From assembly GCA_018971485.1 (NCBI GenBank), contig JAGXAQ010000012.1, positions 1 to 50,350 of the forward strand: 50,350 nucleotides of DNA, in the 5' to 3' direction. The position numbers and the translations under genes were made by a program. Positions 443 to 2,690 of the stretch are shown here, piece by piece (the first letter of the stretch is position 1; each line of letters opens with the position of its first letter). The notes under the pieces were generated by a model. That model saw only the letters and a program-made list of their open reading frames with translations. It was not told the origin of the DNA and did no database searches. The DNA comes from Pseudomonadota bacterium. GTDB taxonomy: Bacteria; Pseudomonadota; Gammaproteobacteria; Burkholderiales; REEB80.

Positions 443-1008
443 GTGCTGGAACAGAAGTTCGATAGCGCGCCAAACACGTCAGCGGACTTGCAGGTTGTAG
501 TGATACGCCGTCTGTCAGATATTCAGCATGATTTGCTTTATGCCGATTTTGCACAGGGCAAGACTTTCAAGGCCCTTCCGAAGGAAGTGGGCGTGCAAAA
601 TTGGATCGCGAATGAGTTGTGCGGCCACCAGGGGCGAGCTTACTCGGTCGAACGCGAACCCCATGTGGTCGAGGAAAAGGAGACTGATATTCGCTTGCGG
701 GCACGATCGATCGACATTGCACTCCCGATTGAGGTAAAAGTTCCCGAAAGCTGGGCGCTGGCTAATTTCGAAGAAGCGCTGGTTGCGCAGCTTTGTGGCT
801 GTTACCTGCGGCCTCAGGATGGAAGGTATGATTGTTGTTGGCGCACCAAGATGCGCGTGTTCACGGCTGGGAAAAGCCGGATGGGGTTTTTTCACATCCG
901 GTAAACTTAGTCGCGCATCTGCAAGCAAGCGCAGACTCAATTGCCGCGAGCGATTCCGATGCACCGCAGGTCCGGATCGCCGTATTGAACGTTTCGGGTG
1001 TCTGTTAG
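443..1008 (+). pseudogene. PD-(D/E)XK nuclease-like protein, frameshifted
   Basis: A GTG at 443 follows a good Shine-Dalgarno and opens a frame that carries a restriction-endonuclease-fold signature: Asp82 in TDIRL and Glu97-Val-Lys99 in PIEVKV. After residue 129 (QDGRY) this frame turns to non-conserved sequence and stops at 904. Skipping to the next frame at 832 restores a sensible chain, LLLAHQDARVHGWEKPDG, then VRIAVLNVSGVC, to a TAG at 1006-1008. One lost base near 830 explains this, so the ancestral product was at least about 188 residues. The protein may itself be the C-terminal part of a larger one cut by the upstream IS. Function of the parent family is not recognised beyond the nuclease-like core. 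Confidence 0.68.
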
Positions 1009-1141
1009 ACACTCAGCCGATTTGAGCACTGAATATCTGGATTGAACGGGGCGTTCAGAATTTAACCTCTGCTTTCAAGGCGAAAGCAGCTGCCGTTCTC
1101 CTTGCCAGTTAGCGATTGCCTGTCTCTGCGTGGGGCGGCAC

Positions 1142-1279
1142 TATGCGTAATATATGATCCTATGCGCAGGATAATGCGTGTACGCACAGAATATGTCCTT
1201 TGTGCAGGTATATCTTGCGTATAAACCTTGAAAGTTGCGTATATGCATGATAAATTGCGCGTAGTAGTTTTACGCGCAA
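1142..1279 (+). promoter_or_regulatory. TGCGTA/TACGCA operator array upstream of the Fic gene
   Basis: Repeated half-sites fill this stretch: TGCGTA at 1144, TGCGCA at 1163, the palindrome TGCGTGTACGCA at 1175-1186, TTGCGTA at 1215 and 1235, and a perfect inverted repeat TTGCGCGTA (1255-1263) N7 TACGCGCAA (1271-1279). The last three TGCG cores start at 1216, 1236 and 1256, an exact 20-bp phase that would place bound proteins on one helix face. The downstream protein begins with a winged-helix domain, so autoregulation is the simplest reading. The repeats are seen directly; protein binding is inferred. Confidence 0.7.
1228..1256 (+). promoter_or_regulatory. Candidate sigma-70 promoter of the Fic gene
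   Basis: TTGAAA at 1228-1233 and TAAATT at 1251-1256 are separated by 17 bp, matching the sigma-70 consensus at five and four of six positions. The predicted transcript start near 1263 lies inside the perfect inverted repeat 1255-1279, and one repeat unit (1235-1241) sits in the spacer. Binding at these sites would block RNA polymerase. Confidence 0.45.
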
Positions 1280-1292
1280 TAATGGAGAGGCT

Positions 1293-2690
1293 GTGGCAAG
1301 GCGCATTCAAGAAGAGGATTTACGGGCGATTGAAGACGCTGTGCGCACCCACCCCGGGGAGGTGACAGCACAGCAGATTGCTGATGTGCTGGAATCCGCG
1401 CCGCCGCGCCGAACCTTGCAATACCGCCTTAAATCGCTTGTCGATGACGGGCGCCTCGCCATGGCAGGCGAGGGGCGCTGGGCGCGCTACCGGGTGTCGG
1501 GTGCCGTGGAAGCGGCAGGCGGAGCCGCAGGTAAGGCGGAAGCGTGGGCCGAGGGCGAGGCATTCTTGCCACTCTCCGCGGCCGGCCGTGAAATCCAGGC
1601 CTATGTCCGTAAGCGGCCGCAGGCGCGCAGGCCGGCTGGATACAACCGCGCTTTCCTTGATTCCTATCGGCCAAACGAAACCTTCTATCTCACCTCTGCC
1701 GAGTGGGCGCATCTGCACGAGGTTGGTACGCCGAAGATCGCGGTTCAGCCGGCTGGCACCTATGCGAAGCAGATACTGAACAAGCTGCTGGTCGACCTGT
1801 CATGGAACTCTAGTCGCCTTGAGGGCAACACCTATTCGCTGCTTGACACCAAGCGCCTGATCGACCTTGGTGAGGAGGCGGAAGGCAAACAGCGCCTTGA
1901 AGCACAGATGATCCTCAACCACAAGGACGCCATCGAGTTTTTGATCGGTGCAGCTGACGAGATCGGCTTCAACCGCTATACGATTCTCAATCTTCATGCA
2001 CTGCTGGCAAACAACCTGCTCACGGACCCGGAGGCGTCGGGCAGGCTGCGCCATATCGGTGTCGGTATCGAGCGCTCCGTCTTCCATCCGCTCGAAGTGC
2101 CGCAACTGATCGAAGAATGCTTCGATCAGATTCTCGCAACGGCCTCGGCTATCGCTGATCCGTTCGAGCAGGCTTTCTTCGTCATGGTGCAGATTCCATA
2201 TTTGCAGCCGTTCGATGATGTCAACAAGCGGGTATCGCGCTTGTCCGCGAATATCCCGCTGATCAAGGGCAATTTCTCGCCTCTTTCGTTCGAGGGCGTG
2301 CCGCGTGGCGCCTATACTGAAGCGGTGCTGGGAGTGTATGAACTCAACAGGATCGAATTGCTGAAGGACGTTTTTATCTGGGCCTATGAGCGCTCGGCAT
2401 ACCGCTATGCGGCGGTCCGGCAATCGCTCGGCGAACCGGACCCCTTCCGGTTGCGTTATCGTCAGGGCTTGCGCGAAGTCATCGCTGCGGTTGTGCGGGG
2501 ATGCATGGATAAAAAACAAGCCATAGCCTACGTGAATGACTGGATGCACGGGCATATCGACTCCGAAGACCGTGAACGCTTCCGCGAGACGGCCGAGGAT
2601 GAGTTGCTCGGCCTGCATGAGGGGAATTTCGCACGCTACCAGATCAGGCCGTCCGAGTTCACGGCATGGCGGGAGGTATGGAGCCGATGA
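1293..2690 (+). CDS. Winged-helix Fic-fold protein with degenerate Fic motif
   Basis: This 465-residue protein has an N-terminal winged-helix DNA-binding domain (about 1-70) and a Fic domain (about 160-390). The inhibitory-helix motif of class II Fic proteins is present (Ser173-x3-Glu177-Gly178 in SSRLEGN). The active-site loop reads LQPFDDVNKR (304-313), so the catalytic His of the canonical HPFxxGNGR is Gln305 and the glycines are replaced. AMPylation by the usual mechanism is therefore doubtful; other activities or a purely regulatory role are possible. The GTG start at 1293 follows GGAGAGG. The coding sequence looks more GC-rich than the core genes to the right, and the gene is intact among decayed neighbours, so it is likely acquired and still selected. 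The function of this subgroup is not known to me. Confidence 0.85.
   Translation: MARRIQEEDLRAIEDAVRTHPGEVTAQQIADVLESAPPRRTLQYRLKSLVDDGRLAMAGEGRWARYRVSGAVEAAGGAAGKAEAWAEGEAFLPLSAAGREIQAYVRKRPQARRPAGYNRAFLDSYRPNETFYLTSAEWAHLHEVGTPKIAVQPAGTYAKQILNKLLVDLSWNSSRLEGNTYSLLDTKRLIDLGEEAEGKQRLEAQMILNHKDAIEFLIGAADEIGFNRYTILNLHALLANNLLTDPEASGRLRHIGVGIERSVFHPLEVPQLIEECFDQILATASAIADPFEQAFFVMVQIPYLQPFDDVNKRVSRLSANIPLIKGNFSPLSFEGVPRGAYTEAVLGVYELNRIELLKDVFIWAYERSAYRYAAVRQSLGEPDPFRLRYRQGLREVIAAVVRGCMDKKQAIAYVNDWMHGHIDSEDRERFRETAEDELLGLHEGNFARYQIRPSEFTAWREVWSR

Follow-up and report, generated by a model that had tools for sequence, protein, structure and literature searches.

A phased array of TGCGTA-type half-sites lies directly in front of a gene that joins a winged helix to a Fic domain, and the locus raises two questions: which protein reads the array, and what a Fic domain may contribute to its reader. 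The relevant features of the window (the whole stretch of DNA analysed, 50,350 nucleotides) are as follows.

1141 to 1150, minus strand: half-site TTACGCATAG, 9/10 to TTGCG[C/T]ATAG
1160 to 1169, minus strand: half-site CTGCGCATAG, 9/10, at a position kept in one homologue (L002)
1174 to 1185, no strand assigned: TGCGTGTACGCA, an extra palindrome-like (half-palindromic) element, by direct reading
1215 to 1224, plus strand: direct half-site 1, TTGCGTATAA, by direct reading and consensus match
1228 to 1256, plus strand: predicted sigma-70-like promoter, TTGAAA-17-TAAATT, with TG ahead of the -10
1235 to 1244, plus strand: direct half-site 2, TTGCGTATAT, 20 bp downstream of site 1 and within the -35/-10 spacer
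1255 to 1264, plus strand: direct half-site 3, TTGCGCGTAG, overlapping the end of the -10 and the probable transcript start
1270 to 1279, minus strand: inverted half-site TTGCGCGTAA, closing partner of direct half-site 3
1284 to 1290, plus strand: ribosome-binding site GGAGAGG, by direct reading
1293 to 2690, plus strand: winged-helix-Fic gene, 465 aa, GTG start (Pfam Fic, 39.1 bits, cut-off 24)
1311 to 1496, plus strand: predicted N-terminal winged helix, residues 7-68 (AlphaFold2, block pLDDT mostly 79-89)
1422 to 1424, plus strand: codon of Y44, putative specificity residue for half-site base 1, from covariation
1479 to 1481, plus strand: codon of W63 in the wing, covarying with half-site base 7
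1809 to 1829, plus strand: SSRLEGN, class-II-type inhibitory motif, residues 173-179, with S173, S174, E177, G178 and N179 in 115/115 aligning members
2205 to 2240, plus strand: degenerate Fic motif QPFDDVNKRVSR, residues 305-316, with Gln in place of the catalytic His

When agreement with TTGCG[C/T]ATAG at a minimum of 8 positions out of 10 is taken to define a half-site, the at least six half-sites claimed in a preliminary description of this locus are recovered as six at 1141-1279, each matching 8-9 positions, with the joint consensus TTGCG[C/T]NTAG; position 1202 holds only a weak half-site remnant. The exact 20-bp spacing described for three cores is borne out by the direct sites, which start at 1215, 1235 and 1255, as is the placement of the array over the likely promoter and transcript start, the predicted -35 and -10 elements being interleaved with half-sites at 1228-1256. 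The inverted repeat given as perfect, with 9-bp arms and a 7-bp spacer, is indeed perfect and has that spacer, and its arms are 10 bp long (1254-1263/1271-1280). TGCGYA/TACGCA occurs five times in 1142-1292 against a mean of 0.63 and a maximum of 5 in 5000 dinucleotide shuffles, and the self-identity of the upstream region at lag 20 is 0.39 against 0.26 (p = 0.0015); count and 20-bp phase are therefore both beyond chance.

The encoded protein belongs to the Fic/Fido superfamily (PF02661, 39.1 bits against a cut-off of 24), its best Foldseek matches are to FICD (E 2.5e-5), and its best PADLOC family is the candidate PDC-S04 (E 5e-15). The N-terminal winged helix named in the preliminary description is also predicted by the AlphaFold2 model at residues 7-68, with helices 7-18, 26-32 and 39-51 and strands 55-58 and 65-68, residues 39-51 forming the putative recognition helix and 59-64 the wing. 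Overall confidence of the model is moderate (pLDDT 77, pTM 0.60), and the Pfam match to HTH_20 is weak.

Canonical Fic enzymes carry the motif HxFx(D/E)GNGRxxR, in which the catalytic His acts as general base. The family analysed here lacks the His that marks a catalytic AMPylase motif: Q305 occupies its position in 116/116 members, the most divergent of them at 35% identity. The link drawn in the preliminary description between a Fic active-site state and DNA binding therefore needs rewording, since a classical AMPylation state is probably absent. The Phe, the Asn and both Arg of the motif are invariant, the conserved glycines are V/K, and a helix with the (S/T)xxxE(G/N) motif N-terminal to the Fic core assigns the protein to class II. 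Such strict conservation of the site argues against decay and indicates that it is kept for something, most simply for nucleotide or partner binding. Judged from its sequence, the protein should not be an ordinary AMPylase and looks like a pseudo-Fic regulator.

Fic proteins that bind DNA have been described. CccR of Yersinia pseudotuberculosis is a Fic-HTH autorepressor which, like the protein in the window, unites a Fic fold and an HTH in one chain, and it represses its own promoter via sites near the -35 and -10 (PMC9755527). It differs in that its HTH is C-terminal whereas the predicted winged helix is N-terminal here (residues 7-68), its catalytic Fic motif is intact and confers toxicity, which mutation of His192 removes, and its operator is a palindrome in place of a 20-bp-phased multi-half-site array; no conserved residue-site code is described for it in the accessible part of that report. 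CbFic2 of Coxiella burnetii shares the class II inhibitory motif and a winged helix (PMC10628234; CbFic2/SoFic PDB 8cil, 3eqx), and its DNA binding is coupled to dimerisation. CbFic2/SoFic differ in having a C-terminal wHTH, in being active (de)AMPylases and in binding random DNA, and the available sections of the same source report no operator (PMC10628234).

The genomic context was examined in 80 relatives (60-88% identity) obtained by one scan of genome contigs with six peptide patterns that lie outside the Fic motif, the inhibitory motif and the recognition helix; the share of W63 in this set may be somewhat inflated because one pattern, AMAGEGRW, ends at that residue. The relatives come from records of Alpha-, Beta-, Gamma- and Deltaproteobacteria, Acidobacteria, Verrucomicrobia, Planctomycetes and Rhodothermales. 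The majority of copies look solitary and frequently lie close to integrases, on islands or on plasmids, and the copy in the window looks solitary as well. By ORF calling and HMMs, defence genes stand directly behind fic in 9/80 loci. In six of these (L026, L027, L032, L038, L049, L076) fic overlaps a GajA-like gene, which is followed by GajB, and a Fic-led Gabija subtype is possible in Bradyrhizobium, Sphingobium, Reyranella, an Acetobacteraceae MAG and a Verrucomicrobia record; in two (L030, L081) fic overlaps a SIR2/pAgo-like gene, and an nSTAND NTPase gene lies closely downstream in L057. No neighbour family is common to more than six loci, and those that reach this number are GajA/GajB. 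No adjacent small antitoxin gene of the Doc/Phd or FicT/FicA type was found among ORFs of at least 80 aa, and phage records gave no match to the Fic protein.

Several hundred bp behind fic, a SIR2 family gene is present on a plasmid of Sagittula sp. P11 (L114), and an ATP-binding protein and S8 peptidase pair on Mesorhizobium plasmid pOM4 (L105). In the window, a 153-aa ORF at 443-904 (plus strand) resembles positions 1243-1371 of the NACHT antiphage HyoA model with E 1.6e-35, far under the family cut-off, and by this resemblance it is taken for what is left of the C-terminal part of a defence gene, immediately upstream of the array. For the ORF at 2536-2901, a PADLOC 'Tin' match was disbelieved as weak (E 0.0027).

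The protein could be a CccR-like self-regulated toxin or active modifier, with a Fic domain that modifies some target and an HTH that merely limits the protein's own level. CccR provides the precedent (PMC9755527), the inhibitory motif SSxLEGN is retained, the solitary copies sit on plasmids and islands as toxin or defence genes do, and the relatives correspond to PDC-S04, a PADLOC profile for a candidate defence gene without assigned function or operator in the PADLOC library. However, all 116 members carry Gln for the catalytic His, while mutation of this His abolishes the toxicity of CccR; the change of the conserved glycines to V/K also speaks against an enzyme, and the operon-leading position suits a regulator. 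This alternative is therefore considered unlikely, though it keeps more weight than any of those discussed below.

For the preferred reading, that the Fic protein itself reads the array, the homologues are the main source of evidence. The refuting observation named in the preliminary description, that homologues lack such repeats, was not borne out: the array, with a spacing of 19/20/21 bp, is present in most of the 80, and in most of them a 200-bp stretch contains several TGCGYA cores compared with about 0.1 per 200 bp in gene or downstream DNA; most of the remaining ones have variant arrays as judged by eye. The homologues share the layout: about 8 bp separate an inverted CTATGCGCAA from TTGCGCATAGAcTTGATtTTGCGCATA, after which come a third TTGCG and, ahead of the ribosome-binding site, a closing site in inverted orientation; a TTGATT-like element between repeats recurs. 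Sites are spaced by 19, 20 or 21 bp, (19,21) and (19,20) being the commonest triplets. Mean self-identity over 81 upstream regions peaks at lags 19, 20, 21 and 40 (z 10.8, 4.8, 7.2 and 6.5 against shuffles), and coding DNA has no peak at lags 19-21 or 40. In distant and held-out members, de novo repeat detection found a significantly repeated 8-mer, of differing sequence, in 25/34 against 2/30 coding controls. The arrays of remoter members include ATCGTTTC (L119, L120), AATCTTGTCA (L122), TTGTCCATTA (L101) and TTGGCCGTAT (L082, L083); in L080, L099 and L110 an array was not clear or not significant.

Differences between these arrays follow residues of the winged helix. Wing residue 63 and half-site base 7 agree in 70/73 scored rows, base 7 being T in all 57 scored rows with W63 and A in 13/16 scored rows with another residue, typically as TTGCGCGATT. 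With the winged helix excluded from the tree, a dependent-evolution (Pagel-type) model beats independence (LR 34, p = 7e-7), and the correlation was reached by 0/3000 simulations; these two approaches were used in place of an independent-pair sign test, for which 3 pairs were too few. At residue 44 of the recognition helix, which relates to base 1, TTGCG is favoured with Y (71/72), H (5/5) and F (2/2), and R44 occurs with TGGCG in 10/11, the exception (L091) having another motif. The actual site of L082/L083 (R44) is TGGCC, and D44 goes with TCGCG in one case (L060). Within a close clade, L040 has gained both R44 and TGGCG, its sister L037 having His44 and TTGCG. In a held-out set of later-added copies from plasmids and distant genomes, Y44 copies have TTGCG in 7/7 and Q43-R44 copies (43-56% identity) have mainly TGGCG in 7/7. 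At the level of sequence, the site is shown to co-evolve with the DNA-reading residues of the encoded winged helix. Upstream of fic in L060, where Tyr44 is changed to Asp, several tandem TCGCGCATAGAG-like sites with a phase of about 20 bp were also observed.

The location of the array points in the same direction. The tandem-pair pattern TTGCGYNTA-N8-13-TTGCGYNTA, scanned in 21 whole genomes, gave 30 matches in 15 of them, all directly upstream of a fic gene by coordinate comparison, against 1 match of the reversed pattern as a control; a looser scan, for TTGCGY pairs irrespective of the bases around them, was discarded as too unspecific. The window's genome contains 86 single TTGCGYNTA matches, four of them in the array, and no second cluster. 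With tandem pairs only before fic and no other cluster, the array therefore marks no regulon. Two genomes, G013 (L058 + L082) and G014 (L061 + L083), each encode two Q-Fic paralogues of about 37% identity with the arrays TTGCGCATAG and TTGGCCGTAT, as expected if coexisting paralogues avoid cross-talk.

It is very unlikely that another regulator, a host or phage protein, binds the array and that the winged helix of the Fic protein serves at some other place. Isolated half-sites do occur genome-wide, but the array travels with fic across phyla and plasmids and is found nowhere else in the genomes searched, no neighbour regulator is conserved, and the site sequence follows residues 44 and 63 of the fic-encoded winged helix. 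An action of the repeats in RNA, as a leader hairpin, is still less probable: the perfect 10-bp arms (1254-1263/1271-1280) span -39 to -13 relative to the start codon, immediately ahead of the ribosome-binding site, but the predicted -10 ends at 1256, so that transcription would start within the left arm or beyond it, the majority of half-sites precede the start point, and changes in their bases go along with changes in DNA-binding residues. Chance or a simple sequence repeat, with which the chance-level frequency of TGCGYA over the whole window (49 vs 44.5) would agree, is refuted by the local excess, the phasing and the conservation across phyla.

The suggestion of the preliminary description that the array is probably the operator of the Fic gene's own product is thus strongly supported by its conserved phasing, its private location and the base-residue covariation; because it is conserved, private and matched in sequence to the winged helix, it is best read as the private operator of the encoded wHTH. 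We consider it highly probable that the protein acts there by promoter-covering autorepression, and less certain that the Fic domain is a sensing or oligomerisation module that releases the repressor. On comparative grounds, control of its own gene by the Fic protein is very likely, and in some loci this control would extend to the defence operon behind it.

Twenty bp correspond to about two helix turns. Several subunits or dimers would line up next to each other along the same face of the DNA, each reading one half-site, and the inverted end half-sites would seat head-to-head partners. The bound array would cover the -35, the -10 and the start point, blocking RNA polymerase and repressing the gene and those cotranscribed with it; repression is the direction inferred because the array overlaps the promoter. 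With less confidence, the His-less Fic domain, which keeps the other nucleotide-site residues and the inhibitory helix, may sense a ligand or partner and drive oligomerisation; stress such as phage infection might then release the repressor and allow the Fic protein to be made, and Gabija, SIR2/pAgo-like or nSTAND operons, where present, might be under the same switch.

Regulators of other kinds are also known at defence loci. BrxR/CapW combine a wHTH with a sensor domain, have their own operator and occur beside diverse defence systems (PMC9122601, PMC9122588); their sensor is WYL and not Fic (the window's Fic protein has no WYL match in Pfam or NCBIfam), their sites are inverted repeats instead of tandem phased half-sites, and their sequences are unrelated. 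RptR represses its own defence-island promoter via three direct repeats over the -10, but it is a 9-kDa protein without a sensor domain, and its repeats have a 6-bp palindromic core and a different phase (PMC12255303). Fic-HTH autorepression (CccR), DNA-coupled Fic proteins (CbFic2) and wHTH-sensor or small repressors that head defence operons (BrxR, RptR, CapK/CapS) are therefore already known; what distinguishes the present family is a winged helix at the N-terminus, a Gln that does not vary, an array of multiple sites in 20-bp phase, and the residue code. By titles and abstracts, no His-to-Gln Fic regulator or Gabija-heading Fic was found in the open-access literature.

More tentatively, these proteins may represent a large family of Fic regulators that have lost catalysis, each with its own operator array, in which the Fic fold would be a sensor of nucleotide state or of a phage product that opens the adjacent defence operon, and whose operators diversify against cross-talk. 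The family, which is widespread, provides a directly testable protein-DNA code (residue 44/base 1, residue 63/base 7) and hints at what a Fic fold that lacks the catalytic His may do. Co-evolution is demonstrated and the mechanism is proposed from it; the array may offer an extra layer of control for Gabija and other defence operons.
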